Virus record (IMG/VR): IMGVR_UViG_3300017963_000243
Location: 1 to 64,000 of that record
Origin: a virus
Direction: 5' to 3' (one strand)
DNA: 64,000 nt
Part shown: positions 7,575 through 52,700 of the stretch, piece by piece
Layout: every line of letters starts with the position of its first letter
How positions within the stretch are numbered: position 1 is the stretch's first letter
Position numbers and translations under genes: made by a program
Notes under the pieces: generated by a model
What the model was told of the DNA's origin: nothing
The model's input: only the letters and a program-made list of their open reading frames with translations
Databases searched by the model: none

Positions 7575-7895
7575 TTACCTCGTAAAGTCCAGCTTGGTCT
7601 GGCGCGGGTCGTCTGGTATCGGAGGCCCAAGGTCTTCTTCCTGAGTCTCTGGAGTCCGGAAATCCAGCTCCTCTGGGATCGTCCAGAGTCGAGGCAGCTT
7701 CTCTACTTCAGTTACGCTGTCAATGTCGGGGTGGTCGCTCGCGAAGTCGTCTAGGTCCCAACCCGAGTACGCCTCTACTATGTCTGTTATGTCAGGAGCT
7801 ACGTTGTCTCTAGCTGAATCCTTGGTGTCTGCGTACACGTAGACTTCAGCTACTTCCACCGCCGTGCGTGATACTTTAACTTTGAACATCGGCAT
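7575..7895 (-). CDS. Acidic hypothetical protein (106 aa)
   Basis: The N-terminal 40 residues look like a small alpha/beta fold (Phe-Lys-Val-Lys-Val, then Val-Tyr-Val-Tyr-Ala), and the C-terminal half is acidic and Pro-rich. GGGGAGGTGA precedes the ATG at 7895. It overlaps the end of the next upstream gene by 20 bases, indicating coupled translation. No function recognised. Confidence 0.6.
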   Translation of the reverse strand: MPMFKVKVSRTAVEVAEVYVYADTKDSARDNVAPDITDIVEAYSGWDLDDFASDHPDIDSVTEVEKLPRLWTIPEELDFRTPETQEEDLGPPIPDDPRQTKLDFTR

Positions 7896-8184
7896 CGCCG
7901 TCACCTCCCCTTGCTGCACGGGCTTTCTTTAGACGCTCCGCCATGGCTGCTCGTTGCTCTTCCGAAATTTCTCGTTTGGTGTCCTCCTTGAGAACCGCGC
8001 CTTTGGCACGCGGATTATACCTCGACCAGTCGAAGTCAGGCTCTAATTTACGGTACGGCATCCAGCGGTAGAGAGAGCAGCTAGGAACCTCACAATCAAC
8101 CTTGCCATCTTCGTACTGTCCGCAGCACTCGTGGCATTTTTTGAGCATAGCTTCACTGCGTCCTGGTCCTTTAGACTTGGCCAT
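7876..8184 (-). CDS. Cys-rich phage protein with C-x2-C and Cys-Ser-Leu-Tyr motif (102 aa)
   Basis: Near residues 17-42 there is a C-x2-C pair, two further cysteines, and a Ser-Leu-Tyr-Arg-Trp-Met-Pro-Tyr-Arg stretch, a signature seen in small phage proteins of unknown function that likely bind zinc. The C-terminal half is a charged helix with a basic tail. GGAGTGACCTC precedes the ATG. Upstream lies a long gene-free leader. Confidence 0.65.
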   Translation of the reverse strand: MAKSKGPGRSEAMLKKCHECCGQYEDGKVDCEVPSCSLYRWMPYRKLEPDFDWSRYNPRAKGAVLKEDTKREISEEQRAAMAERLKKARAARGGDGDADVQS

Positions 8185-8400
8185 GAGGTCACTCCTGTGG
8201 GTTTGTAAAAGTCCTCGTCTTTCCGAGGCGTCACCGGTTCCGTCCCTTGTCTGATAATGCTGTTCGCTCCTCCCACGGGCCCACCAAGACTGGGCCTTCT
8301 ACTCTTGGCCTCAGCCTTCTAGGGAGGGTCAGTCACCGGAAACCATCTCTCAAGCACTCTCACACTACTGTGATGGGAAGTATCCCACCCGTGGTTCTTG

Positions 8401-8460
8401 CCAGGGTATTGACTAAGCCTACATTCGTCCACTCGTCCGTAGGCTTAAGAGATACGCTGG
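8401..8460. ncRNA. Two-part stem-loop with symmetric internal loop
   Basis: 8401-8409 pairs with 8452-8460 (8 of 9), and 8414-8422 pairs perfectly with 8439-8447. The four-base internal loop is TGAC opposite AGAG. The copies of (G)TGG-TTCTTGCC on each side form a direct repeat. Strand unknown. Confidence 0.45.
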
Positions 8461-8513
8461 CTTGAACCTGGGGTGGGTTCTTGCCGACTGCTAGTGACAT
8501 AATTAGCCACTAT

Positions 8514-8530
8514 GAGAACGTAACGTTCTC
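8514..8530. repeat. Palindrome GAGAACGTAACGTTCTC
   Basis: Perfect inverted repeat around ACGTAACGT, 34 bases past the stop of the arginine decarboxylase gene. Shares its core with 5911-5923. Confidence 0.45.
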
Positions 8531-8563
8531 TGTCTCGAGATGTAGTAGACACTAGTGTGGGAT

Positions 8564-9133
8564 CTAGACTTCTGGGTACTCGTACTCGACGAAGCAAAGC
8601 GCGACGTAGACCAGGCCGTACGCAGCGTCAACGATAATGTCCCGAGTGTAGTAGGTCACATCAACGATATCGAAAGTCCTCGGGTCTCCCTTGTACCGTC
8701 TTTCGACGATACCTTCGAGGTCCTTCTTGAGAATGGCCTTAGCTTTCTCTTTCGAACCGTGACCTTCGTACTCGGCGGCGAAACCCCCGAGGTGCTCGCG
8801 ATTACCGTCATCGTCCACGACGTAAACTTGGCACGTACCGATACCGGCACAGAGGTGCTCCCCCTCGACACCCTCCATCTGAGCTTTGATAGTTTCGAGC
8901 ACTGCACCATGGTGGACCAACCCGAGCTTCTTAGCTTGCTCGAGCTTGATCTCCTTGGCTTCCGGCGGAAGAACGCTGGTGTACGTCATCACGTTGAAGT
9001 TTTCGATGCCGCCATCCAGGAGGGCCATATCATATGCGGAAGTCTCGTAGTGGTCAGAGCCCGTCTCAGCACTGGACTGCCCCGCACCGGAGGTTACGAA
9101 GTAGAGTGTAGGAATTCGACATTTGGTTCTCAT
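8564..9133 (-). CDS. Pyruvoyl-dependent arginine decarboxylase (189 aa)
   Basis: Converts arginine to agmatine, the first step to polyamines, using a self-generated pyruvoyl group. The protein shows the family's landmarks: Ser-Gly-Ala-Gly-Gln-Ser near residues 15-20, Gly-Ile-Glu-Asn-Phe-Asn-Val at 42-48, a processing site Thr52-Ser53 just before Val-Leu-Pro-Pro, and a C-terminal Glu-Tyr-Glu-Gly. Ser53 would become the pyruvoyl residue after cleavage. Length fits. No other polyamine gene is in the window. A histidine decarboxylase relative is possible but the motif order favours arginine. Confidence 0.85.
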   Translation of the reverse strand: MRTKCRIPTLYFVTSGAGQSSAETGSDHYETSAYDMALLDGGIENFNVMTYTSVLPPEAKEIKLEQAKKLGLVHHGAVLETIKAQMEGVEGEHLCAGIGTCQVYVVDDDGNREHLGGFAAEYEGHGSKEKAKAILKKDLEGIVERRYKGDPRTFDIVDVTYYTRDIIVDAAYGLVYVALCFVEYEYPEV

Positions 9134-9438
9134 CTGTGTTTTCTCCCCTTCAGACGTTTCGTATTGATGTTGTTAGCTACCGGAATCATACGATCTCGCG
9201 CCACAGGATTGGCGGTGTGTACCCCTATAAAAGGCGCATAGTTGACGTACTCGTGCGCACGCCGTTCGATGCGATAGAGGATGTCGTACCCAGTCTTGGT
9301 TCCTCCAAGATCGTGATCAAGACTGATAACATCAAAGTCCCAGTCGTTCTGCTCGAGGAGCTTCATCGCAGATTTGTAACTTTTGGCCCAGATCCAACCG
9401 TCGGGAGCGGGACGTACGTCGTCTACCCAGAGTTTCAT
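9130..9438 (-). CDS. cREC-type receiver-like domain protein (102 aa)
   Basis: Starts with Met-Lys-Leu-Trp-Val-Asp-Asp-Val-Arg-Pro-Ala-Pro and has Ile-Ser-Leu-Asp-His-Asp-Leu-Gly near residue 38-45. These are hallmarks of the small receiver-like domain known as cREC (cyclic-phosphate-processing receiver), which has been proposed from comparative genomics to act in RNA repair or nucleotide signalling. The tail is basic. It overlaps both neighbours by four bases, so the three genes are translationally coupled. Confidence 0.75.
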   Translation of the reverse strand: MKLWVDDVRPAPDGWIWAKSYKSAMKLLEQNDWDFDVISLDHDLGGTKTGYDILYRIERRAHEYVNYAPFIGVHTANPVARDRMIPVANNINTKRLKGRKHR

Positions 9439-10319
9439 CGCTTCTTTTTCTTACCTCGTTTAATCGGCTTCTTGGTGCCAGGGTCGGTTTTGAAGCTCAT
9501 ATCGAAGAAGCCCTTCTCGTCGCGCATGTCCTCGTCGGAGATTTCCAGGGTGTCAGGCTCACCGACACCCAGGACCCCCCCGATATATTGGGAGATCTCC
9601 TGGTAGACCTCGTAAGGATCTGCAACTTTCATGTAACCGACTTTACGTAACGCATCGTTGACGTGGAGGGCCAGACATCCACGACCGTAGGGACCGTCCA
9701 TCCTTCTCAATGTTATGATGGGAGACTTGAAGTGTTGGAAGAGCCGTGAGTCGTCTCTAGGCAGTCGCTTGTTGAAGAATGCCTCGAACTCTTCTCGATG
9801 CAGTTCGTAGATGTCACCGTCTTTTCTGTGTTTACGTTTCCGCTGTTCCTTCTTGGAAAGTTTAGCGTAATACAGTGTCCTGAGGCGCTTAGGGAACTTG
9901 TCTACGATTTTGTCAGCTTGTTGGACGTTGTACGCGAAATCCACAGTGGCGTCGAAGTCGTCTAATGAACAGCTGTACCGTGCTTTATTCCCGTATCGGA
10001 ACCGCAGGCAGGGGCGGATCTTGCCACACACTCCCACCACGAGGATATTGACCGAAAAATGGAAAGAGTCTTCTCTTCCTTCGAGTTCAGCACGCCAACA
10101 GTTTTCCTGAGGTTCCCAGAAGAGGTCCATCCCGGGAGTCTCGACGTCAACTTCCCCGTGGAGTTCTCCCTGGGCGGTTAAGTCGGTGTAGATTTTTCGA
10201 AGGGTGTCTCCCTCGTTGACGCCGTAGCGTGTAACCTTACGGAGATACACGAGAGACAGATCGACACCGTGTGCTTGAACTGAGTCGTAGTAATCACGAA
10301 ACTTCGAAATGATTCTCAT
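9435..10319 (-). CDS. Conserved phage protein of unknown function (294 aa)
   Basis: Begins Met-Arg-Ile-Ile-Ser-Lys-Phe-Arg-Asp-Tyr-Tyr-Asp, a start I associate with a widespread, uncharacterised phage protein. The C terminus includes Ile-Ser-x-Tyr-Ile-Gly-Gly and a Lys-rich tail. I start at 10319, behind AAAGGAAAACGAC, rather than at the longer in-frame start that would enter tRNA-Asn. It overlaps the cREC gene by four bases (ATGA). Confidence 0.7.
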   Translation of the reverse strand: MRIISKFRDYYDSVQAHGVDLSLVYLRKVTRYGVNEGDTLRKIYTDLTAQGELHGEVDVETPGMDLFWEPQENCWRAELEGREDSFHFSVNILVVGVCGKIRPCLRFRYGNKARYSCSLDDFDATVDFAYNVQQADKIVDKFPKRLRTLYYAKLSKKEQRKRKHRKDGDIYELHREEFEAFFNKRLPRDDSRLFQHFKSPIITLRRMDGPYGRGCLALHVNDALRKVGYMKVADPYEVYQEISQYIGGVLGVGEPDTLEISDEDMRDEKGFFDMSFKTDPGTKKPIKRGKKKKR

Positions 10320-10334
10320 GTCGTTTTCCTTTCG

Positions 10335-10406
10335 AGGCCCGCGTTGGGATCGAACCAACGACCTGGTGGTTAACAGCCACCTGCTCTACCGCTGAGCTAG
10401 CGAGCC
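10335..10406 (-). tRNA. tRNA-Asn(GTT)
   Basis: Complete cloverleaf with 7-bp acceptor, anticodon loop CTGTTAA (anticodon GTT) and T-loop TTCGATC. It lies 15 bases before the start of the 294-aa gene. Confidence 0.93.
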
Positions 10407-10409
10407 AAC

Positions 10410-10470
10410 GCGCGAGTGCTGCCAATGGAGAGTCCTAAACAGTTGTTTTTGGTTACGGCAGCACCCGCGC
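10410..10470 (-). terminator. Long hairpin next to tRNA-Asn
   Basis: 10410-10423 pairs with 10457-10470 (13 of 14 bp). It lies between the end of the 117-aa gene and tRNA-Asn on the minus strand. It has no U-run, so it may be a processing or stabilising structure rather than a classical terminator. Confidence 0.45.
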
Positions 10471-10496
10471 AACATCCAAGTTTACATAGTAAAGCC

Positions 10497-10850
10497 TTAG
10501 GAGGCGACCTTCAAATCCTTCTCGGACACTCCCCTAATGTAGTCCTTGGCGCTGTCGATCCAGGACTGGATGTACAGCTCCTCACCGTCGAACCTCTTGG
10601 CGATCTTGGCGATCTCCTTGAAGTTGGGGGGACACTCGGTGTGTCTCTCGATGGCCTCGTACGGGACTCTACGCAGAAGCCCGTAGGCAAGTAGGTTGTC
10701 TCTTGCGGCCCAGCGCACAGTAGTAGTGCGATGGTGATTGAGACGCCACTTGGCCATCCCGTTTACCTTCCGGGCTTCTTCCCGGATGGTGCGTGCTTCG
10801 TCTGCGAGGTTTTTGATTTTGACCCGAAGGTGGATTATTCGTTCGTTCAT
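10497..10850 (-). CDS. Small basic helical phage protein (117 aa)
   Basis: A highly charged N-terminal helix (residues 1-40, Arg/Glu-rich) followed by a His/Arg-rich segment. The look is common among phage early proteins of unknown function. AAGGAG is well placed before the ATG at 10850. Confidence 0.65.
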   Translation of the reverse strand: MNERIIHLRVKIKNLADEARTIREEARKVNGMAKWRLNHHRTTTVRWAARDNLLAYGLLRRVPYEAIERHTECPPNFKEIAKIAKRFDGEELYIQSWIDSAKDYIRGVSEKDLKVAS

Positions 10851-10978
10851 CGTCTTTCTCCTTGTTGGTGTTGTCTCCACGGGAACAGAGAAAGACGTGA
10901 AGGGGGGCCTCTAGCGGTTTTGTATTCAGGTGAATCTCATGTGCTTATCCTATTCATGGTTGCAGAGGATGTCAACTG

Positions 10979-11051
10979 CGCCCCCACCAGGACTCGAACC
11001 TGGAACGGCGTGGATTGAAAGCCAGCTACTCTGCCATTGAGTTATAGGGGC
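10979..11051 (-). tRNA. Atypical tRNA, probable Glu(TTC), aberrant anticodon arm
   Basis: Acceptor (GCCCCTA/TGGGGGC), D-arm (ACTC/GAGT) and T-arm (CCAGG/CCTGG with TTCGAGT) are sound. The anticodon arm is not: with a 7-nt loop (CTTTCAA, anticodon TTC) two of five pairs are lost. With an 8-nt loop CTTTCAAT plus a bulged C on the 3' side all five pair. A regular tRNA-Glu(TTC) lies at 14244-14317. This may be a decaying copy or an altered-decoding tRNA. Confidence 0.75.
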
Positions 11052-11057
11052 TATGTG

Positions 11058-11960
11058 TTACAGATTCGGAATGTTGTGCTCGAGGTACGAGGGGATTATC
11101 TCATGACAGTTGCCACACGCTAAGACCTTTTCCTGCGTATGCTTCTGGATGTGCCACCATGGTGCGAGAATCGAGGACCCACACACCATGCACTTTCCAG
11201 GATTTTTGTACTTCACCTTCCTCTCTTCCCAGTGGTAAGTGGGTGTGATCCCTCTGGACCAATGCCAAAGCCCTTCGCTGATGGAAAAAACGTAAGCAAG
11301 GTACTCGTAAGTGTGTAGCGCGTAATGAGGGTCTTCGACAATCTCGATCTCTTCTATCGAGTTCTCTGCGTTACGTGTCCAGTTAGCAGTACCTCGTATA
11401 GCCGCCGTAGGGATGTACTTTCCACCTTTACCCGGCAATAGCCGCACCGCGTGTTTGAGGTGCATTAGTGGACTCGTCTCATTTTCTCTAAGCGGAGCAC
11501 GGCTCCCTCGAAAATCTCCTACAAGACGTACGGCGTCTATCATTCCGTAGTCGTTTTGTCCGTCACGACGACTCAGGTGTGCAAAACAGTTACCCGGTAA
11601 CTGGTTACGTCTCACGTAACAGACGAGATTGTTGTACGCCCGGGCAACGCGTAGTGTAGGGCGGAACTTATCCACAACTACTGCGCAGTTTCCGTGTTCT
11701 AACGCGTTGATGAGGTCTTTGTGTGTCAGGATATTGAGTCCTGCCAGGATCATCCCGTCAGCCCTGTTAGTCTCACGTATAAACTTAATAATTTCGTCCA
11801 TGAAGTTTGCACGGTAACGCGTTACGTTTACGATCTTGGCGTACGTACGTTTTTGCGGGAGTGACGGAGCTCCCCGCGTACCCGCGTAGGTGGCGAGGTC
11901 ACTGTTAAAATTTTGGTCAGGTGCTGGACGACTGCTGGGAGTTGCCTCATACGTTTTCAT
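11058..11960 (-). CDS. Phospholipase-D-fold nuclease with C-terminal zinc ribbon (300 aa)
   Basis: The middle carries one HKD-type signature: His-x-Lys-His-Ala, then about 25 residues on Gly-Thr-Ala-Asn-Trp-Thr and Asn-Ser-Ile-Glu-Glu-Ile-Glu, matching the H-x-K...G-S/T-x-N-x-T...N-x-E layout of PLD phosphodiesterases such as Nuc-type nucleases. The C terminus has C-x2-C twice (Cys-Met-Val-Cys and Cys-Gly-Asn-Cys), a zinc ribbon for nucleic acid binding. Start 11960 follows GAGAAAGG. It sits between a tRNA and a 16-nt copy of that tRNA's 5' end. Confidence 0.75.
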   Translation of the reverse strand: MKTYEATPSSRPAPDQNFNSDLATYAGTRGAPSLPQKRTYAKIVNVTRYRANFMDEIIKFIRETNRADGMILAGLNILTHKDLINALEHGNCAVVVDKFRPTLRVARAYNNLVCYVRRNQLPGNCFAHLSRRDGQNDYGMIDAVRLVGDFRGSRAPLRENETSPLMHLKHAVRLLPGKGGKYIPTAAIRGTANWTRNAENSIEEIEIVEDPHYALHTYEYLAYVFSISEGLWHWSRGITPTYHWEERKVKYKNPGKCMVCGSSILAPWWHIQKHTQEKVLACGNCHEIIPSYLEHNIPNL

Positions 11961-12368
11961 TTCTAGACCTTTCTCTTGTGTCTCTAGACGCACTTTTAAG
12001 GATGTGCGCGTGTAACCTATTGAGTTATAGGGGCGTTTCCGAAGGTGTGCTACTACGCCAAAGACCTGTCTTCTACCCGGCGGCTATCTCCCGCTGTTCT
12101 ACGCGTCGCCTACCGCCGAAAACACCGCGCAGAACACCAGCTGTAGCACGGCTGGAACACGCCCCCTGGACCTCAGACGTTTACCTTGCTCAAGGGCTCA
12201 ATCTATTCGGATCCAGAGAGGGAGTACACTTGCAGCCTCAGGTCCAGTTTTTATTCGGCTAGTAACAAGCCGCCAACTAGCTGCCGGGCCTACGTGCCTC
12301 TGCGAAGATGGCGGGCCACTCTTTAAAGGATGGCTGCCTCTAAGCCAACCTCCCGCCAGAAACGCTGT
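11961..12368. other. Gene-free stretch with tRNA fragment and inverted repeats
   Basis: Holds the 16-nt tRNA 5' fragment (12019-12034), a CGGCGG/CCGCCG pair near 12077-12120, a CCAGC/GCTGG hairpin, and an 8-bp stem CTGGACCT/AGGTCCAG (about 12168/12241) whose 3' arm is followed by TTTTTAT on the plus strand. No gene is supported. Confidence 0.4.
12019..12034 (-). repeat. Duplicated 5' end of tRNA-Glu-like gene (16 nt)
   Basis: ATTGAGTTATAGGGGC is identical to 11036-11051, the acceptor/D-arm start of the atypical tRNA. The two copies flank the PLD-nuclease gene in the same orientation, as expected after insertion of a mobile gene at a tRNA. Confidence 0.6.
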
Positions 12369-12440
12369 CGGGGCGATAGGATTCGAACCTACGGCATCCA
12401 GCTCCCAAAGCTGGCGCGCTACCAGACTGCGCCACACCCC
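12369..12440 (-). tRNA. tRNA-Pro(TGG)
   Basis: Anticodon arm CCAGC-TTTGGGA-GCTGG gives anticodon TGG; the T-arm has TTCGAAT. Acceptor GGGG/CCCC with one inner mismatch. Confidence 0.92.
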
Positions 12441-12442
12441 GT

Positions 12443-12508
12443 AAAAAAGAGCAGTGAGACGGAGTGGGGATGTGGGGGGAACATCCGGGGATTTCCATCT
12501 CACTGCTC
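12443..12508 (-). terminator. Intrinsic terminator with branched stem
   Basis: On the minus strand GAGCAGTGAGA pairs with TCTCACTGCTC (11 bp), an inner GGATGT/ACATCC hairpin fills the loop, and TTTTTT follows. It ends the 128-aa gene's transcript just before tRNA-Pro. Confidence 0.75.
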
Positions 12509-12526
12509 AAGAGAATGATACTGCGA

Positions 12527-12913
12527 TTAGGTGCCGAAGAGAAGGGACGATGCTCGACGCGTAGCGTCTTGTAGCCATTCCTGAAGTTTTTCAGCTGCTT
12601 CCAAGTCGATACCTTCGTCCTTAGCCATCTTGGCAACCTCTTCCTGGATCTCTGCAACCTTGAGGAGGTTCTCTGCGTAGGTTCCATCCTGATCCTTCTC
12701 TAGCGGAGTAACCATGAAGTCCGGAACGACGGTAGGCGCATCTTGGTCCCTTCGGAGCATCCAAAGCTTCTCAGGATCGAGGGATATGGTTATACCCCGG
12801 TAGTGTACTTGATCTGTGTGCGTCTCCCTCACGGGGAACCTGACAGAGATGCGGCACTGTCGTCCCGAGCTCGGGATGATGTTGATGATAGGTTCCCCTA
12901 TGATGTACGCCAT
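12527..12913 (-). CDS. Hypothetical protein (128 aa)
   Basis: A beta-type N-terminal half and a helical C-terminal half rich in Glu/Lys/Ala. Nothing recognised. The start at 12913 follows GGAGGAACC; a longer reading would enter tRNA-Gln. It is followed by a strong terminator. Confidence 0.6.
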   Translation of the reverse strand: MAYIIGEPIINIIPSSGRQCRISVRFPVRETHTDQVHYRGITISLDPEKLWMLRRDQDAPTVVPDFMVTPLEKDQDGTYAENLLKVAEIQEEVAKMAKDEGIDLEAAEKLQEWLQDATRRASSLLFGT

Positions 12914-12926
12914 GGTTCCTCCTGGA

Positions 12927-12997
12927 TGGGGCAGAGGGACTCGAACCCCCAACACTCGGCACCAAAAGCCGATGATCTACCAGTTGATCTATGCCCC
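12927..12997 (-). tRNA. tRNA-Gln(TTG)
   Basis: Anticodon arm TCGGC-TTTTGGT-GCCGA gives TTG. T-arm with TTCGAGT, acceptor GGGGCAT/CTGCCCC (one inner mismatch). It ends 13 bases before the 128-aa gene start. Confidence 0.93.
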
Positions 12998-13376
12998 AAG
13001 AAAAAAAGGGGACAGGCGCCCCAGAGCTTGGATAGTCGGATATCGGGTAATCGCAGCCGCGCTTCTTCCAGCTTCATAACTTCCACTGAAAGCTAGATCG
13101 CGGCGTTTCGGTTGTTCGTGCAGTCGGTACAGTCGGACGTTCGGAGTTCGGCTGTTCACACAGTCGGAGTTCCTGGTCCATGAGACACGCCGTGTGAGGG
13201 CGCGTACCGTGTGGGGTGAGGCTTAAAAGGCCAATCCACATGGGCTGTACTTCATCTTTTTTCAAATGATGATATCGATCCGCAACGATGTCACCGGCGA
13301 CACCTACGGCTTAGGGTGCCGTGCAAACCCTTGCTCTGCGCTACGCCTGTCCTATGTAGTACGCTCTAGGAGCGTT
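12998..13376. other. Gene-free stretch with 40-nt direct repeat
   Basis: Two diverged 20-nt copies starting CGG(T/C)TGTTC and ending CAGTCGG lie 40 nt apart (about 13109 and 13149), with a third CAGTCGG at 13130. A TGTAG-ACGCTC/GAGCGT-CTACA inverted repeat near 13351-13377 follows the stop of the next gene and may act as its terminator. No gene seen. Confidence 0.4.
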
Positions 13377-14015
13377 CTACACCGAGAAGTTGTCGAGAAC
13401 CGTCTTGGACACCTCGACCTGGGTGTCCCAGTTGGTCTTCTGGATGCACGCGTCCACCTCCCGCAGCTTGCGCTGCAGCGTGTCGACGACCTGGAAGGGC
13501 TTGAGCTCCGAGGGAGCCTTGCGCTTGACCTTGGTCACCAGGTCCCCCAGACCGTCGGCGATGGGGACGCGCTCGGAGATCTCCTGGAAGAGCTCCTCCG
13601 CCGAGACGCGGAAGTTGTGGGGGGCCGGGGCGCGGCGGATGCGATCCTCGAGCTCCTTGCGCCGGACGAGCAGCTCGGCCAGCTTGACGGTGGCGGGTCC
13701 CGTGGACGCGACCTCCTCGTCCGACATCAGGTCGTGGGTGACCTCGACGTCCGTGACCCAGTTGGCCTGCTGCACGACGCTGTCCGCGAGGCGCCGCTGG
13801 TGCGCGTAGTAGTTGGTCTCCTTCTCCAGGAGGCCCTTGTCCACCAGGCTGACGTGACCGACCACCTGGTCGATCTCGTCGTTGACCTTGCGCCGCTGGA
13901 CGCTGTCACGGGTGATACCCGCCTCCTGCGCTCCCAAGCGTCCGCTGAAGAGGGCGTTGAGCTCCTTACGACGCAGGAGCAGCTCAGCCAAGGCGATTTT
14001 CTTCTTGTCGGTCAT
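13377..14015 (-). CDS. DIP1984-like protein with internal duplication (212 aa)
   Basis: Two repeats of about 95 residues each begin with Leu-Ala-Glu-Leu-Leu-x-Arg-Arg-Lys-Glu-Leu and end with Gln-x-x-Asn-Trp-x-Thr-x-Val-Glu-Val. The pattern of an N-terminal Leu-Ala-Glu helix and a terminal Asn-Trp/Thr-Asn block resembles the DIP1984 family, whose role is unclear. The gene is visibly richer in G+C than its neighbours, hinting at acquisition. Start 14015 follows AAGGAGGTAC; a second AAGGAGGTAC lies about 65 bases upstream with a GACGC-TTTC-GCGTC hairpin between. Confidence 0.65.
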   Translation of the reverse strand: MTDKKKIALAELLLRRKELNALFSGRLGAQEAGITRDSVQRRKVNDEIDQVVGHVSLVDKGLLEKETNYYAHQRRLADSVVQQANWVTDVEVTHDLMSDEEVASTGPATVKLAELLVRRKELEDRIRRAPAPHNFRVSAEELFQEISERVPIADGLGDLVTKVKRKAPSELKPFQVVDTLQRKLREVDACIQKTNWDTQVEVSKTVLDNFSV

Positions 14016-14243
14016 GATCCGTACCTCCTTCGTAGTTCTGAGACGCGAAAGCGTCCGATAGGGGAAAGTACGGACTTGTACCTCCTTTGAGACTTGTTTT
14101 TCAAAGAGCACTCTGTAGGAAGCAAGGCTCCCATTACACCTTATTACAGACTATTGCGCGCCCACCTGTGGTCTGAACATGAGTACCACATGCCCGTCAG
14201 ACCCTACCGTGCAGGTACTTGGTCTAGTCTCGCGCACCGATAG

Positions 14244-14317
14244 TGACCCCGGCGGGGCTCGAACCCGCAATCTTCGGCGTGAAAGGCCGATGTCCTAAAC
14301 CATTAGACGACGGGGCC
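14244..14317 (-). tRNA. tRNA-Glu(TTC)
   Basis: Regular cloverleaf: acceptor GGCCCCG/CGGGGTC, anticodon arm TCGGC-CTTTCAC-GCCGA (anticodon TTC), T-loop TTCGAGC. Confidence 0.95.
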
Positions 14318-14391
14318 AAAATAAGGAGAAGGCTGCCCGGGACTTCGTGAAGTAACCAGACCGAAGACATCGACCATCCGGACCTTCTCCT
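14318..14391 (-). terminator. Stem-loop followed by TTATTTT, upstream of tRNA-Glu
   Basis: 14324-14332 pairs perfectly with 14383-14391 (AGGAGAAGG/CCTTCTCCT), with an inner ACTTC/GAAGT hairpin, and TTATTTT follows on the minus strand. A terminator or small structured RNA. Confidence 0.5.
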
Positions 14392-14546
14392 GACTACGTT
14401 AACAAAGGGGGAGTACTTATAGCCTGCGCCCTCCCCAGGCGCATGCGTCTTTTGCTTCTCGGACTCAACGCAACTTGTCCCGGTATTGTACCTTATTTTG
14501 TATAGCGACAAAGAAGCCCATCGCTTTTTCACAGCTGCCAACTGTG

Positions 14547-14932
14547 TGGTGGAGCCGCCGGGAGTCGAACCCGGGTCCGCCTACGGGTCATGTACTGATC
14601 TTCACGTGTGTGGTCTCCCTTTTCGTTTCAGACGGTGACTTCCGAGAGACGAGTCATCACGGTCTTACTGCGCTTTCGTTTACCCGGCGTCATCGCGCAG
14701 AACTCAGCCTGGGTTTGCCCGTGTAATTACGCCCCCTGGGTTACTCGAGCTCCTCACTCAGGGCACGCCCGCGCCGTTTAAGCGGCCACGGCGAGCGGAC
14801 TCGCCATGGGGGTCGGGAAGGGAACTACGTTGTCGGCAGTTCGAGTTGAGTGTCCTTTTTAACCCGCCGAACACACAAGGCGGAACACGCACAGTACACT
14901 TCCATCGCACACGTCGAAACCGTGTCGGCCCC
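14547..14932 (-). ncRNA. ssrA: tmRNA (386 nt)
   Basis: Rescues stalled ribosomes by acting as tRNA-Ala and mRNA. The 5' end GGGGCCG pairs with the 3' CGGCTCC, the 5' domain has the conserved GGTTTCGACG, the T-arm is GGACCCGGGTTCGACTCCC-like, and CCA is encoded at 14547-14549. The likely tag frame is 14778-14837: GCC resume codon then ADNVVPFPTPMASPLAVAA and TAA. The first three residues (Ala-Asp-Asn) and the LAVAA end match bacterial degradation tags, but 19 residues is long. A at position -4 from the resume codon is present. Confidence 0.93.
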
Positions 14933-15306
14933 ATGAGAAGGATCTAAGTTGCCATGGTGTCCTCCAATCTGTTGGTCCCTACCAGGGGTGCGTGCTCTTG
15001 CCATCAGTCCGAGAAGGTTATCCGAGGGTTATGAGCCCCCCGACTCCCTCAAGGTCCGGACTCGAGCGCGGGTTTATTGGTCTTTCCTAGTAGCTCCTCG
15101 AGGCAGCGGGAGTCGGTCCGAGTTTACGGACTCACAACTTCCATCACCAAGGCGCTTCCCGTTTCCTTGGTTGCTGAGGAGCCCTACAAGGAGCTACTAG
15201 GAAAGACCAATTTTTCAAAGAGTACGCCTCCTACCTTACTCCTCCAGAGGACCTAGGAATCTGGAGTTTCATCCATGCCTCCACTCCAATACCTCGGAGA
15301 CGTGAT
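14933..15306. other. Gene-free stretch between tmRNA and tRNA-Met
   Basis: Contains the long inverted repeat 15076-15215 described separately and no credible gene. Confidence 0.5.
15076..15215 (+). ncRNA. Branched structured RNA: 23-bp perfect outer stem ending in U-run
   Basis: 15076-15098 and 15189-15211 are perfect 23-nt inverted repeats. Inside are a GTCCG/CGGAC hairpin (about 15115-15130) and an ACCAAGG/CCTTGGT hairpin (about 15146-15171), so a multibranched fold of about 136 nt. TTTTT follows the 3' arm on the plus strand, suggesting a plus-strand transcript that ends here. Function unknown. Confidence 0.55.
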
Positions 15307-15377
15307 AGCGGGGACCGGATTCGAACCGGCGTGACGGGATTATGAGTCCCGCGACTGAAACCACTCGTCTACCCCGC
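15307..15377 (-). tRNA. tRNA-Met(CAT)
   Basis: Acceptor GCGGGGT/(C)CCCCGC-type, anticodon arm CGGGA-CTCATAA-TCCCG (CAT), T-loop TTCGAAT. A paired first base suggests elongator Met, or an Ile tRNA with modified C34; I cannot tell which. Confidence 0.9.
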
Positions 15378-15582
15378 ATCAATGCCCGTCTTTCCGGGCT
15401 GTCCGCTCTAACCAGGACCTCCCCTTATCCGGCCTTACAGTAGCATGCCCGACCGGCATTTGGGTATTCGACCTGGACGTCAGCGACCCGCTAACACGAA
15501 CCCACTGACAGCTGCGATGACCTACGAGCAGCGTCCTGTAGGTCAGGGCATCAGCTTCTTTTACCAGGTAATGTGAGGCTTT
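15378..15582. other. Gene-free leader of the tRNA-Met/tmRNA segment
   Basis: Hairpins GCCCG/CGGGC next to tRNA-Met and GACCTAC/GTAGGTC near 15519-15544, the latter enclosed by GCTG..GATG/CATCAGC. A minus-strand TGGTAAAAG lies at its far end. No gene seen. Confidence 0.4.
15558..15566 (-). promoter_or_regulatory. TGGTAAAAG motif, copy 3
   Basis: Minus strand, upstream of the tRNA-Met/tmRNA segment and just after the stop of the 46-aa gene. Fits a promoter for the RNA cluster; inferred. Confidence 0.4.
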
Positions 15583-45871: not shown

Positions 45872-46411
45872 TCAACGCCAAGTATATGGCGATTCGTTGT
45901 TATATCCAAGAGGCAAATTGCGCAACTGTTCATCCGCTCGGGGTGAAACGCGTGTGACGTACTTGGCTGTGCGGCCTAACCCGCGCCCCAAACGTTCCCC
46001 TAAAGTTCCCGCAACCATCGAGCCAAGCATTCCAGTGGGTCCCCAAGCGGCTAATCCTAGGGCAGTTCCCCCTAGCAACCCTCCGATACGTTCCGCACGC
46101 TCACCAGGATCTCCTCGTACGATGTTGGCAGCCTCTATTGCGGGGAATCCATACAGTAACGCTTTGTTGAACGCCCCCGGTGCCTCGAATCCCTCCCGGA
46201 ATACGCTGCCCGGTTTGAGCGATTGCTTCATCCGCCACTCATGAGCGAAACGACGAGGTCGACCGATCATGAATCGCTTCACACCCTCTCGGGTGGGGAG
46301 CTTCTTAGCGAGGTACTTCCCTAATCGGGAAAGAGCCCTCGGCATAGCCGCCTCTTTAGTAAGGCCCATCTCGGAATACACGGCGTACTTACCAAGATCG
46401 TAGGGAGTCAT
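45872..46411 (-). CDS. Gly-Ala hydrophobic head-cluster protein (179 aa)
   Basis: Basic N-terminal half and Gly/Ala-rich hydrophobic segment (about residues 106-140). The ATG overlaps the stop of the beta-prime C-terminal gene (TGATG), so it is co-translated with the polymerase gene. Confidence 0.55.
   Translation of the reverse strand: MTPYDLGKYAVYSEMGLTKEAAMPRALSRLGKYLAKKLPTREGVKRFMIGRPRRFAHEWRMKQSLKPGSVFREGFEAPGAFNKALLYGFPAIEAANIVRGDPGERAERIGGLLGGTALGLAAWGPTGMLGSMVAGTLGERLGRGLGRTAKYVTRVSPRADEQLRNLPLGYNNESPYTWR
45881..45909 (-). promoter_or_regulatory. Promoter: TTGGAT-17-TATACT
   Basis: -35 TTGGAT at 45904-45909, 17-nt spacer, -10 TATACT at 45881-45886, minus strand, upstream of the 58-aa gene and inside the end of the 179-aa gene. 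Confidence 0.6.
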
Positions 46412-48210
46412 CAGTACCGCCCCTTCTCTCCTCGACCAAAGTCTACGCCATATGCGTACGCAGGAACAGGGTGTGTTCCGTGCAGATTCGAAATATCCCC
46501 AAAATGTGCCGCTTCTTGGAGTGTGCTTTTCAAGTTACGATGACCGAGGCGCGCAAGCCAATCCGGATGGAGTAGCGGGGCACGCGAAGCAGGTTTCATG
46601 ATGAACTCTACCTCTGGAGCACGCGGGGCAATCGCAATGGTCTTTAACCCCTCCTTCTTAAGGTAATGTAATACAGAGGGGGTGACTCTCTGCCCTACAG
46701 AGAAGTGAAAGTAGGGCTTTCCTAAAGTTTGTCCGAGAGTCTCGTTGACGGGGACCTCCTTAGTTCCCGAAGCCAAAGAAGAGCGCAACTTGTTATACGA
46801 AACCACGTCCCCCTTGATGAACTTATTAGTCGGGTCATCGAGAACGCGAACATGGTTCAGTTCGTTCTTTGCAAGCAACTCAAAATGTCGTTGATCCAGA
46901 GTCTTCCCCTGGTTCTCATACAAATCTCGCAGGGTATTTACGAGGTAAAGCCTCCCTGCGGCCAGCCCCTTGTGGCGCACGATTTCATCTGGCTTAGGGA
47001 TACCTTCGCTAAGGCGGTCGCCCCTTTCCACGGCGTCACCCTTCTTCACGACTACTCCCAAATTAGGAGCTACGAAGTGTTGTGTGTTACCTATGTGTAC
47101 GTAGGAGCCTCCCTGGGGAGCTTTCTCTATTTTTGATACCTTACCGTCAATGTCCGCTAGCGTAGCTTTATTCATGAACTGCTTGGGAGACTCGATGATC
47201 TGTCGGAATCCCGCAACACCCTGCAGGCGCATTCGGTCACCTTTGGCTGTGCGAACTCCGTGCTTGGCATCTAAAGCGAACTGACTGAGCGGTTCCCCCA
47301 TTGCAGAAGCGGAACGTACTCCTACATTAACCCCTAATTCGTGTACGTTTCCCTTTTCGTTCAGCCCCTGGCACTTTTGACAGACACCATCATCTGCCTC
47401 ACAAGTCATAGGGGAGCGCACCAACACCCTGGAAGCCCCACTCTTTCGAAGCTTCGTCTGCATATCGGAAGTAACTAAAGAGTTCCTGCGGAACTTTCCA
47501 GTATCCCGTGCCAGATAACGATCTACGATGTTCGGGTCGGTAACCTCCATCGTAATGCCGTTGTGCGTTCCGCAGTCCACTTCCGTTACCAGAGCATCCG
47601 CCATGTTGGCCATTAGTATCTTGGTCAACTCGCCAGGCTCCGAAACAGAGACGGTACTCTTGATAGTGTCTAGAATGGCCTCGTTACCTGCGACCCAATA
47701 GTCCGAAGGTTTGAGCCCCTCACTGTAAGACTTTCGAATTAGCCAAGGTTCAGTAAAACCGTAAGGGTCACGGGCCGCAGCAGGGGAGCCCACGATCTTC
47801 GAAAACTGCACAGGCTTTCCTCGTGCCCCGCTCCGAACTTGCTGAGTCATCGTCCCAGGGTGTGAGGTCGAAATTCCCACCATCTTCTCCTGGGCATCTT
47901 CTGCGATCCTGCTGCGTTGTTTATCCGTAGTAGCTTTGTCAAAAGCTGTGACGTAAGGTTTCAGGACTTTATTGCGATTCCTATAGTCAGGAGCGATGTC
48001 GTCTAGTCCAATAGAAAGGCCCTCCATCGTAGCTAACGCGTCACCTTCCCGCTTGAGGTCAGTGATCGTTTTGACGTAAGCTACGGGATCTTTATGCGCG
48101 AGCTCATTCATCTTCTTTTTGAGCTCACCCTTCCCCGACTCTCCTGACAGCCGATATTGCTCGGGAATATGCTGATTTAGCAGAAGCTGTCCTAGTGTTT
48201 GCGTCGACAT
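46411..48210 (-). CDS. RNA polymerase beta-prime, C-terminal half (599 aa)
   Basis: Carries the beta-prime C-terminal core: the Phe-Thr-Glu-Pro-Trp-Leu/Tyr-Ser-Glu-Gly-Leu-Lys-Pro-Ser-Asp-Tyr region of the bridge and trigger helices, an Asp-Cys-Gly-Thr motif, and a Cys cluster near residues 263-277 (Cys...Cys-Gln-Lys-Cys) followed by Gly-Val-Arg-Ser-Ala-Ser-Ala-Met-Gly-Glu-Pro, the counterpart of the bacterial trigger-loop neighbourhood. It holds no catalytic Asp triad, which lies in the fused beta/beta-prime gene. Must assemble with that protein. The start abuts the stop of the primase-phosphoesterase gene. Confidence 0.85.
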   Translation of the reverse strand: MSTQTLGQLLLNQHIPEQYRLSGESGKGELKKKMNELAHKDPVAYVKTITDLKREGDALATMEGLSIGLDDIAPDYRNRNKVLKPYVTAFDKATTDKQRSRIAEDAQEKMVGISTSHPGTMTQQVRSGARGKPVQFSKIVGSPAAARDPYGFTEPWLIRKSYSEGLKPSDYWVAGNEAILDTIKSTVSVSEPGELTKILMANMADALVTEVDCGTHNGITMEVTDPNIVDRYLARDTGKFRRNSLVTSDMQTKLRKSGASRVLVRSPMTCEADDGVCQKCQGLNEKGNVHELGVNVGVRSASAMGEPLSQFALDAKHGVRTAKGDRMRLQGVAGFRQIIESPKQFMNKATLADIDGKVSKIEKAPQGGSYVHIGNTQHFVAPNLGVVVKKGDAVERGDRLSEGIPKPDEIVRHKGLAAGRLYLVNTLRDLYENQGKTLDQRHFELLAKNELNHVRVLDDPTNKFIKGDVVSYNKLRSSLASGTKEVPVNETLGQTLGKPYFHFSVGQRVTPSVLHYLKKEGLKTIAIAPRAPEVEFIMKPASRAPLLHPDWLARLGHRNLKSTLQEAAHFGDISNLHGTHPVPAYAYGVDFGRGEKGRY

Positions 48211-49797
48211 CTAAAATCCCAACCCAATAGGCGAGGGTCCTGTGGCCGTCTCGTGCGAAATCTCCTCCTTGGGACCCCAAGAAGTCGGACGGTTAAGCCG
48301 GTCCTCTACCCGGTCATCCGCCTTGTTACCACCCTGTCGCTCTGGAACTCTCAAGGTGTTGAGGAGACCCGCCAACTCCGATGCGGGCATCCCCTCATCC
48401 GCGTTCTCCATAGGTTGTTGAGCCTCACTTGTACTGAGACGTTTTTGTTTTAAGCGTGACCGGATCTCCCGCGTAGCCCCCAACTTCTGGAGCACACGGT
48501 CAAACCCTTCCCAGAAAGCCGACATTTTTTGTAGGGCTGTCTTTCTCATATCCGTCACATTCCTCAATAACCACGCATCTTCCTTGGTTCGGAATAACAC
48601 GTAGTCCTCCTCAGTACCACCTACACGTCTCTTGAATTTTACCTTATCCGGAGAGGCGGCGGTAACCTGAACCGGTTCCTTATGCTTAATCTCAACAGAT
48701 CCCTTCCCATAGCCTTTCATGATGGGTTGCGGACCTGATGCTCCGAACCCTAGAGCGTAGTCGGCTGTATGGGTAGGGGTTTGAATCGCCAACACGTTCT
48801 CTCGAGTAGATGGTAATTTCGCCTTCGGGAGAGCCCAAGAATGGGCGTGCCCTGTCCAGGGATCGACGAGACGGAGATCGTAGTGCTTACCTGCACGCTC
48901 AGCCTTGTGTTCCTGTACAGCTAACATCCAAGACTTGGGTTGCCGGAATGTAGGAATTTTTTCTACGGGTTTCCCCGCGGGAATCCCCGGAGCGAACTCC
49001 TTAGGTTTCTTCTTAGTGCGGAGACGTGTGACGACTTCAAGAGGGTTGGCATGGGTTGCCGGGTCGAATCTCTTAAGCTCATTATCCCTTACAGGTACGG
49101 AGACCAGGCCCGTCTCACTATTCAATGAGTAGGGCGCTCGGATAGACCCCTGGTCGTGGAAAGTGGAAACGTCCAGACGGATTTGGTCTTTTTCCGGAGG
49201 CGTTACCGTGTAAGGATTCTTACGGCGAGCCAACCTCGACATGATGCGCTTGACCGTGCGTTCGAGCTTGTTGGTGTCGCGTTCAGCATCCAGCTGACCC
49301 CGAACATAAAACCCCGTACCGCCAGAGAAAGAGACATCAGTCTTATTGACTCCGGGGATCTTCTGGACTTCACGTTGAACCGCGCGGACCGCAGGCTTCA
49401 GCTCTTCGATCCCCACGTCCTTGCCCGCATCGATGTCCACCCACACCTGGTTCGTAGTCTTCCCGATGGTTGGGTGGAACTCCGTGTAACGTCTCGATGT
49501 GTACCAGTCGATGTCCTTCCCTGTAGGGATTCGGATAGGTTCATCCTTCTTACGGTAACGTCGAACAATAGGAGTATTCGGCTCCCGGTTCATAACCGTA
49601 AGCAGATCCTTGTCCTTAAGCTCACGGAAAAGGCGGCGACGTACCTCGGGAGTAGAATAGTAATCCAGCACATCCTTCTTGGTCATCTTGATGCCAGTAG
49701 AAGGACTATCGATCACGACCGCGTCCAGGTTCTCTACATCCTGGTACTTCCGGTTAGCCCAGACTGCGGCGCGTTGAGCTGGTGAGGAGTAGGGCAT
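48211..49797 (-). CDS. AEP primase fused to LigD-type 3'-phosphoesterase (528 aa)
   Basis: Residues about 95-260 form a LigD-type archaeo-eukaryotic primase/polymerase: motif I D121-x-D123, a Ser-Gly-Gly-x-Gly (158-162) and D209 in motif III followed by Ala-Pro-Tyr-Ser. Residues about 288-420 match a LigD 3'-phosphoesterase: Gln-Glu-His297, His305-Tyr-Asp307-Leu-Arg309, a His343 and Lys361-Gly-Tyr-Gly-x-Gly. No ligase domain. In LigD these activities fill and trim break ends with Ku. Here it could prime, repair or process ends at transcription or replication sites. It lies between the two polymerase genes, joined by TAATG and direct junctions. Confidence 0.85.
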   Translation of the reverse strand: MPYSSPAQRAAVWANRKYQDVENLDAVVIDSPSTGIKMTKKDVLDYYSTPEVRRRLFRELKDKDLLTVMNREPNTPIVRRYRKKDEPIRIPTGKDIDWYTSRRYTEFHPTIGKTTNQVWVDIDAGKDVGIEELKPAVRAVQREVQKIPGVNKTDVSFSGGTGFYVRGQLDAERDTNKLERTVKRIMSRLARRKNPYTVTPPEKDQIRLDVSTFHDQGSIRAPYSLNSETGLVSVPVRDNELKRFDPATHANPLEVVTRLRTKKKPKEFAPGIPAGKPVEKIPTFRQPKSWMLAVQEHKAERAGKHYDLRLVDPWTGHAHSWALPKAKLPSTRENVLAIQTPTHTADYALGFGASGPQPIMKGYGKGSVEIKHKEPVQVTAASPDKVKFKRRVGGTEEDYVLFRTKEDAWLLRNVTDMRKTALQKMSAFWEGFDRVLQKLGATREIRSRLKQKRLSTSEAQQPMENADEGMPASELAGLLNTLRVPERQGGNKADDRVEDRLNRPTSWGPKEEISHETATGPSPIGLGF

Positions 49798-52700
49798 TAA
49801 CCGATACTCACACGCGTCCCAAGACCAATCTCACCACGCTTATACGCAGCCATGGCGTCAGCCTTAGTCTTGAACTTCTTGGGCGTCTTATTCTTGTCAT
49901 CCACACGAGACGCGTGGTGGATACCCATGATCGCCTCATGCTGCGGAAACACCAGTAGGTCACTTTTGGACTTGTCCCCAAAAAGAAGATTCGAGAGGGT
50001 GATATTCTTCGCGTCCTCGACCGCTTTAGGACCTACAGGAACATGGAGCATCATTGTGTCCCCATCGTAGTCGGCGTTCATACCTTCTTCCACGAACGGG
50101 TTAACTCGGAGGGTGCGCCCAGGGACAGGTACCGGCTTAGCGGCAACAACATTGTAACGATGCAACGTTGGAGCACGATTCATGAGGACAGGACGCTCCT
50201 GGACTTCTCGTCGAAGTGCTTCTTCCGCGGCGGGGTGGCGCTTCTCTACCATCTGCTTAGCCTGAACAGCTGGGAAACCCTGTTGGACAAGTCGGCGAAT
50301 GAGAAACTTGTCGTACATCCCCCAAAGCATGTCCTTGGGAACTCCAACTTCGTCTACTCCAAGGGTGCTATCTGGAACGATAGTCCCGCGGCCAGCCACG
50401 TCTTGAGTTCGGGACATAAGCTTCGAGTGGAAGAAACCATGCTTGGGACCTCCAACACCGGAGATGTACGTCAAGAAACCCTTGTGGTTACGTGCTTTGG
50501 ACTTCGCCGTAGCGGGTTCGTCAGTCCCGTACACCGCGCCTACTGCTTGCTGTAAGGCTGGGCGCAATTTCTTTTCCTCGCCGGGAGGGGTGGGCGTCTT
50601 GGGGTTCTTAACCTCTTTCATCTGGTTGTTGATGTAGATGAGGTCTTGGTAGAGAGGGTTAGTATCCCCGTAGATGATCTGCGTTCCACCCTTACCGGGC
50701 ATGATCGGGCGCATCACCGGAGGTAGTACCGGAACTTTACTAACAACGTACGCTTTATCAGGTGTGAGACCCACGTTACGAAGAGCGTTGATGTACTTGA
50801 GCTGCTTAACCTCGTTGTCAAGCTGATCAGCCTTACGCCCCTTCATCTGTTTGCGTATGTCTTTCTCTTTCTGGTCAAGATCGAGCCTGCCCAACTCACG
50901 CTTGATGTGCGCTCCGCCCTTCTCCTGCAGCGTCTGGGAGAGTTGCGCGTTCGTCATACCGAGAAGGCGGCGAACTGGCTCTTTGAATACAGGATTTACA
51001 ATGGGCTCAGCCAAGTCAATATGTGACCATCGCGTCCCTCGAAGACCGCCAGTTACTCCCGGGTCGAACAGGCCCCCCGCTTCGGGACGTAGGTCTTTCG
51101 CACGAACGATCTTAGCGTCCTTCACCTCTCCCGAAGACATCTCCTTGACGTCGTCATCAGTAAGAGGTCCAAGAGCTACCCTACTACCGTCGCGGCGGAC
51201 ACGCACACCAGCTCCGGTGAGCATCCCGACGAACTTGTCATACGCGAAAGTCGATTTCGGTTCTGGAGGAGTCATGCCCAGCTGTACACCGCGCCAAAAC
51301 TCGTCATTCTTCTGACTCTTCACCGTCGCAACTTCCCGGAGGATGTTGCGGGCGTTGTGTCCGAGAAGAGCGTCGAACTCCATCTTGCCGATGGCCTTCG
51401 CACCTTGAACGCCGCCCTTAGTAGGCTGCAAGTTCATGTCGTAGGTGCCCGTGCTACGTGCGCTGTAGTTGTTATCAGTAGTCTTGAATAACTTATAGAG
51501 ATACTGGCGCCCTACGAAGACCTTCGGAATCTTCTTCCCCGAACGTGGGTCATAGACCGTTTCCTTGTCTTTGACTCCGTGTTTACGTAGTAAATCTTTT
51601 GCCCACTTTACGTTGTCTTCGTTTGTGAAGTTGTCCACTACGATAGGCTTACCGGTCTTCTCTACCACTTTACCTACAGCGGTCTCGATGATCTGACTTG
51701 GGTTGATACGCGACACCACCCCTGCCGACGTCATAAGAACATCGACGGGTTTGCCTGCCTCGTCCTGAATCATTTGGCCATCAGGAACGATCTCTGAAAT
51801 GACACCTTTGTTGCCGTAGCGACCCGCAATTTTGTCCCCGATCCCCGCAGGCTCTCGAGTCTTCACGGTGAGGGTGACGCGCTTCGGGGTCTTCACTACG
51901 TCAATAACCTCACCCTCGTGATCGTGGTCCCATCCCTGTGTGAACTCACGGTGAGGATGGGCCAATGACTTGTGAAGCTTCCCGAGAATGAGGTCATCAG
52001 GGGAGAGCTCCGTCTTGCGTACGCCTACGACTACAGGATCCCCGGGGAGCAGTTTAGTCCCCGGAGCGACTACACCGTCTGTGTCTATAGGCTTGTACTG
52101 GTCTTTGGTGTAGTTGTGTCCGTAGTAGGACTTGTGCTTGTTCGCGCTGAATGTCAGATCGGGATCTTTAGGGATGACAATCTTGTACATGCGCTCAGAC
52201 GTAAGTTTCTTCGCCGCGGCTTCACTTACGACTACTGCGTCATTGGAGTTTGCCCCGTAGTAGGGCATGAACGCTACGCTCATGTTCTTACCAAGCGCCA
52301 GGGTGCCGTTGCGTGTGAAGTTGGAGTCCCCTAATCGCTGCCCCGCTTTGACTTCGTCTCCAGGCTTAACCGAAAGGTCATGGTTCAAATAAGTCTTGGC
52401 CGCTAGCGGGAAATTTTTATCGTACGGAACCTTCACGAGAGCCGGACCTCGAGCGGCTGTTTTTTCATGAGGGCGGATGTAGATGAAATCATCATCCACC
52501 TTCTTAACAACTCCGCTAACGGGTGCGTAAGGGTTGATGATCTTACCGATCATGTTCTCAAACGACTTACCTGAGGGAGTAGCCACTTGTACAAATGGTT
52601 CCTCGCGGTCGACGAGCGACAGTGCTTGAACCTGCATCTTGGATCCCATCACCGCACGGTTACCCTGTGCGGACTCCAAGAATGGGATGAGATTTGTCGT

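Follow-up and report, generated by a model that had tools for sequence, protein, structure and literature searches.

We have found, in a tailed phage, a gene coding for a protein of the pyruvoyl-dependent arginine decarboxylase (PvlArgDC) family. The gene lies in the window, as we call the whole stretch of 64,000 nucleotides that was analyzed, which belongs to a virus record of 78,570 bases (IMGVR_UViG_3300017963_000243). On balance, we think that the protein is a genuine and probably active PvlArgDC with the fold of the M. jannaschii enzyme: It would convert arginine to agmatine, and the phage would benefit from having more polyamines available for translation and for the handling of nucleic acids.

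The gene and its product

The open reading frame runs on the minus strand from an ATG at 9133–9131 to a stop codon at 8566–8564, which are exactly the limits that a first-pass annotation of the window had given without naming a strand. A codon-usage score trained on the same phage prefers this frame to a 228 amino acid antisense shadow, and its GC and codon use are like those of the rest of the phage. When the gene is compared with a 62% identical phage homologue, 58% of the codons differ at the third position and 25–27% at the first and second, a pattern which suggests a protein under purifying selection. The gene is apparently intact, and its reality is confirmed far beyond chance: The profile match, the codon usage and the homologues rule out a chance or an antisense open reading frame.

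The product scores 90.5 bits with the Pfam profile PF01862 (PvlArgDC, cut-off 22.7), covering positions 1–160 of the 161 in the model, and no other Pfam family is found on it at E ≤ 1. The AlphaFold2 model is confident (pTM 0.88) and predicts the PvlArgDC fold. All nine Foldseek matches to the PDB at E ≤ 0.001 correspond to the M. jannaschii enzyme (E 1e-13 to 3e-12, TM-score 0.79–0.84 by target length, 22% identity in the structural alignment), and no match at that threshold is found in the viral structure library. The first-pass annotation had identified the protein as a PvlArgDC and proposed a profile search. Profile and structure agree with this identification and match PvlArgDC alone. A stronger match to another pyruvoyl enzyme, the outcome which the annotation had regarded as contrary, has not been found, and other pyruvoyl families are ruled out, as there is neither another Pfam match nor another fold. 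In particular, the AdoMet_dc family (PF02675, the SpeD fold) is absent from the protein and from the whole phage record.

The scores obtained with the curated arginine decarboxylase (ADC) equivalogs are lower: 43.1 bits for TIGR00286 in NCBIfam, whose cut-off is 106.95, and 39.8 bits for PRK12398, whose cut-off is 207. The protein appears to be a member of PF01862 outside the curated group of ADCs with the same function. Since both scores are well below the cut-offs, arginine is considered here as a putative substrate.

The processing site proposed in the annotation, Thr52-Ser53, is present and intact. In the alignment with the M. jannaschii structures 1n2m and 2qqd, D35, N47 and S53 have identical numbers and E121 corresponds to Glu109. 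Members of this family are cleaved at Ser53, which is the precursor of the pyruvoyl group, while Glu109 assists cleavage (PMC2720952). Six residues are invariant across 24 viral and cellular homologues: A37, L38, N47, S53, G76 and E121. The window protein differs from the M. jannaschii enzyme in having Thr instead of Ser before the cut, in being about 24 residues longer and in being borne by a phage. The chlamydial protein AaxB belongs to the same family, it is a pyruvoyl arginine decarboxylase which also cleaves itself at Ser53 (PMC2720952).

Genomic surroundings in the carrier phage

The proteins of the record include a terminase, a family A DNA polymerase, parts of the beta and beta-prime subunits of RNA polymerase, a sigma factor, a ParB-like protein and an endolysin. 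The carrier is a tailed phage which encodes an RNA polymerase of its own. A bacterial host is indicated by the tmRNA, the sigma factor and the polymerase, which is of the bacterial type. The proteins related to the beta and beta-prime subunits are found at 46411–54155 (minus strand), with the sigma factor elsewhere in the phage. One of them, a 1452 amino acid protein (49797–54155), has only 35–36% identity to those of Salmonella phage Arash and Vibrio phage D69.

The start codon of the ADC gene overlaps the stop of the upstream gene, which codes for a cyclic-phosphate processing receiver domain (cREC_REC), as ATGA. The preceding pair of genes overlaps in the same way, so these three minus-strand genes look translationally coupled, judging from their sequence. 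Behind the ADC gene there is a structured intergenic stretch without any Rfam match. Part of it, 8207–8357, is 88% identical (blastn 8e-37) to positions 7891–8040 of locus L180, the leader of the same downstream gene. With a partly conserved leader and no Rfam match, we do not claim a new RNA here.

Two further tRNAs at 1632–2038 bring the total of the window to eight tRNAs and one tmRNA (ARAGORN). The tmRNA (14547–14932, minus strand) has a long predicted tag of 30 amino acids, and similar ones are found at L015 9705–10090 and L180 2653–3038. The tags of these three related phages end in VTV or AAV, instead of the usual LAA-type proteolysis signal. Either the frame may have been mis-set by ARAGORN or the tag may be altered.

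There are records nearly identical to that of the window, one of which extends 26 kb past it, but they stop short of the ADC site. Two more distant relatives, G003 and G762 (which contains locus L180), have orthologues of the flanking genes. In these phages there is no ADC gene behind cREC_REC, the slot between the flanking genes holds tRNA genes and other open reading frames, and PF01862 is absent from both records. The presence of the flanking genes without ADC in these relatives indicates that ADC is a lineage-specific accessory gene in a plastic region, rich in tRNA genes. The cREC_REC gene itself is kept beside this variable slot in the three related phages.

We have also searched for other enzymes of polyamine metabolism. 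The agmatine deiminase, arginase/agmatinase, SpeD and SpeE families are absent from the record of the window and from a nearly identical record of 91 kb, which rules out that the phage encodes a complete polyamine pathway. In the viral records bearing ADC, many of which are fragments, we have likewise found no agmatine deiminase, arginase/agmatinase or spermidine synthase. The partners of chlamydial AaxB are the porin AaxA and the antiporter AaxC. No antiporter appears among the Pfam families listed for the record of the window (78 open reading frames, 25 of 28 families listed), and the neighbours of ADC are cREC_REC and proteins without a Pfam match, with no adjoining antiporter of the AaxABC type.

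Table 1. Coordinates of the ADC gene, its parts and neighbouring features in the window, and of a cassette found in other viral contigs.
Feature	Position	Strand	Evidence
102 amino acid downstream gene, other border of the ADC slot	7876–8184	-	66% identity in G003, orthologue in L180
Structured intergenic stretch behind the ADC gene	8185–8563	-	Fold z-score -4.7
PvlArgDC proenzyme, 189 amino acids	8564–9133	-	PF01862 E 1.4e-25; model pLDDT 94.1; top 9 Foldseek matches are M. jannaschii PvlArgDC
Predicted alpha-subunit part, residues 53–189, with Ser53 and Glu121	8567–8977	-	Alignment to 1n2m/2qqd and 24-homologue alignment
Predicted beta-subunit part, residues 1–52, ending at Thr52, with Asp35 and Asn47	8978–9133	-	Alignment to 1n2m/2qqd; cleavage inferred from the family
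cREC_REC gene	9130–9438	-	PF20274 E 4.7e-25; TGA overlaps the ADC ATG
AGGGGAG, similar to a ribosome-binding site	9143–9149	-	9 nt 5' of the ADC ATG; read from sequence
307 amino acid protein without Pfam match, first gene of the overlapping set	9435–10358	-	Overlap at 9438 read from sequence
tRNA-Asn, Glu, Pro, Gln, Glu, Met and tmRNA, adjoining the ADC operon	10334–15378	-	ARAGORN, Rfam
PAPS-reductase-like/ParB-like cassette	L034 3575–6423; L124 3631–6471; L125 3677–6462; L126 3715–6462; L119 4839–6495; L122 5908–8436		

Distribution in viruses and cells

Three different queries have detected no ADC homologue in 50,697 phage records, in agreement with the first-pass annotation, which considered the gene uncommon for a phage. 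Scans of viral and genome contigs with single sequences have also found nothing. Alignment-based scans of IMG/VR have detected twelve further viral contigs, all of them above the PF01862 cut-off.

The viral proteins are distributed in three sets in our trees. Set A contains the window protein and that of a 436 kb jumbo phage, which are 62–63% identical. Set B contains enzymes of the Bacteroidales type (L031–L033, L118, L119, L120 and the long-branched L122), and set C contains enzymes similar to that of M. jannaschii (L034, L124–L126). To account for the well-supported branches, the virus label must change at least three times, which makes it likely that transfer occurred more than once, a single gain followed by losses being conceivable. 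The nearest cellular relatives of the window protein are alphaproteobacterial, with a support of 97/84 in the larger tree and 85/60 in a reduced one. In view of the lower support in the reduced tree, we are unsure of an alphaproteobacterial source. One of these relatives is found in a Lichenicola plasmid (WP_171837733.1). It is only about 32% identical to the window protein and belongs to an operon coding for a basic amino-acid/polyamine antiporter, ADC, aguB and aguA. Another case is L102, from a sheep-rectum MAG, where an antiporter-like open reading frame lies behind ADC. The gene surroundings of these alphaproteobacterial homologues are an agmatine context.

The closest homologue, nearest to the window protein in both trees, is that of the jumbo phage (IMGVR_UViG_3300028840_001395, locus L121 of G018). 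This is a real phage, which codes for a portal, a baseplate wedge, helicases, a polymerase, a clamp loader and a tRNA nucleotidyltransferase. It differs from the phage of the window in its size, in the presence of SpeD and in a large tRNA cluster: There are 32 tRNA calls in one 20 kb piece, which ADC does not adjoin. The SpeD (AdoMet decarboxylase) homologue is found at L174 767–1150 (minus strand, PF02675 5.6e-33), giving two polyamine enzymes in one phage. Only one phage genome with more than one polyamine enzyme was present in the survey of Li (PMC9992855).

In L031–L033, ADC is located within or beside phage tRNA clusters. On the other hand, no tRNA is found in the fetched flanks (up to 6 kb) of L118, L119, L120, L121, L122, L034, L124 and L126. 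The apparent association of ADC with tRNA genes is therefore not universal among the viral homologues. Six viral contigs have the same PAPS-reductase-like gene next to PvlArgDC, which belongs to either of two different subtypes, and five of these contigs also have ParB-like genes (Table 1). The PAPS-reductase-like assignment comes from PF01507 and DUF3440 in L119 and L122, and from likeness in the other four. A terminase-like gene is located a few genes downstream in L034. This repeated cassette may concern nucleic-acid modification. Our literature search has found no published link between agmatine and hypermodification of phage DNA.

The PvlArgDC family of archaea and bacteria is already known, and so are polyamine genes in phages. 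An enzyme with the PvlArgDC fold in phages appears to be undescribed in the literature and sequence collections that we have searched. The phage pyruvoyl ADC reported previously, for example that of pelagiphage HTVC201P, also makes agmatine, but it is a converted SpeD with the AdoMetDC/SpeD fold, which is not homologous to PF01862 (Li 2023, PMC9992855).

Possible function and significance

According to our proposal, self-cleavage of the proenzyme would take place between Thr52 and Ser53, the latter becoming the pyruvoyl cofactor, and the mature enzyme would produce agmatine from arginine with no need for PLP. Since no agmatinase, agmatine deiminase, SpeE or antiporter has been found in the phage, the use of agmatine would be left to enzymes of the host: Either an agmatinase, or an agmatine deiminase together with N-carbamoylputrescine amidase, would lead to putrescine and spermidine. 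The gene was acquired into the plastic tRNA/tmRNA region, where it is seemingly translationally coupled to its upstream neighbour. Judging from this location and coupling, the likeliest benefit would be an increase in the polyamines available for translation and for the handling of nucleic acids in the course of infection. Phage polyamine enzymes have in fact been tied to translation (Li 2023, PMC9992855), and a supply of polyamines for translation or replication is our best inference. The first-pass annotation had mentioned neutralization of DNA during packaging, host acid resistance and altered polyamine pools, and the last of these fits best.

Several other explanations should be weighed. 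The protein might be a PF01862 decarboxylase which has shifted to another substrate, such as ornithine, lysine or a modified amino acid. This is rather unlikely. Phage SpeD homologues have done so, switching among AdoMet, arginine and ornithine (PMC9992855), and the identity of only 22% with the characterised enzyme in the structural alignment, the TIGR00286 score (43 bits, cut-off 107) and the His that Bacteroidales-type homologues have at the position of M. jannaschii Asp35 are consistent with a shift, but the window protein retains Asp35, Asn47, Ser53 and Glu121, and its nearest cellular homologues adjoin agmatine genes. A role in arginine:agmatine exchange or acid resistance, as in chlamydial AaxB, would require a host antiporter and seems quite unlikely to us. 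AaxB belongs to the same family and is a partner of the antiporter AaxC (PMC2720952), and antiporter genes also adjoin the alphaproteobacterial homologues. Nevertheless, the idea of acid resistance is weakened by the lack of an arginine:agmatine antiporter among the listed Pfam families of the phage (25 of 28), and the placement among tRNA genes points elsewhere.

It is also doubtful, with a low probability, that the phage requires agmatine itself, for instance for attachment to DNA or RNA, or that arginine is removed in order to hurt a competitor or the host. The phage encodes no downstream polyamine enzyme, and the PAPS-reductase-like and ParB-like neighbours in the other contigs (six and five, respectively) hint at nucleic-acid chemistry in those phages. 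Against this, no PAPS-reductase family is found among the 25 of 28 Pfam families listed for the phage of the window, and in the sister jumbo phage ADC is accompanied by SpeD, which is a polyamine enzyme. Modification of tRNA with agmatine is a trait of archaea, whereas the phage has a bacterial tmRNA, sigma factor and RNA polymerase. Finally, host DNA misjoined to the phage contig, or a decaying passenger, is extremely improbable. Three near-identical records stop before the site, so they do not confirm the join, but the ADC start overlaps a phage gene with orthologues in two related phages, the leader and the gene located downstream likewise belong to the phage, and GC and codon use match the phage. 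The synteny on both sides of ADC rules out host contamination in the main, and the intact frame and the purifying pattern also speak against this explanation.

A supply of agmatine for the polyamine pool remains the preferred explanation, and it may be extended to other viruses. As a tentative idea, unrelated tailed phages would have repeatedly captured the PvlArgDC fold of archaea and bacteria, which would form a translation kit with tRNA clusters and, in one case, SpeD. These phages would thereby set their own supply of agmatine and polyamines. A second group, with PAPS-reductase-like and ParB-like neighbours, may use agmatine directly to modify nucleic acid. This wider pattern of tRNA clusters, SpeD pairing and PAPS-reductase/ParB neighbours deserves a study of its own. 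The enzyme is small and independent of PLP, which makes it amenable to expression, mutation of Ser53 and assay.

In summary, the phage enzyme with the PvlArgDC fold would be a second, unrelated solution to the reaction carried out by the SpeD-derived phage ADC. It occurs in several phage lineages, frequently among phage tRNA genes, and is paired with SpeD in a jumbo phage, so that one can now test why phages exert control over polyamines.
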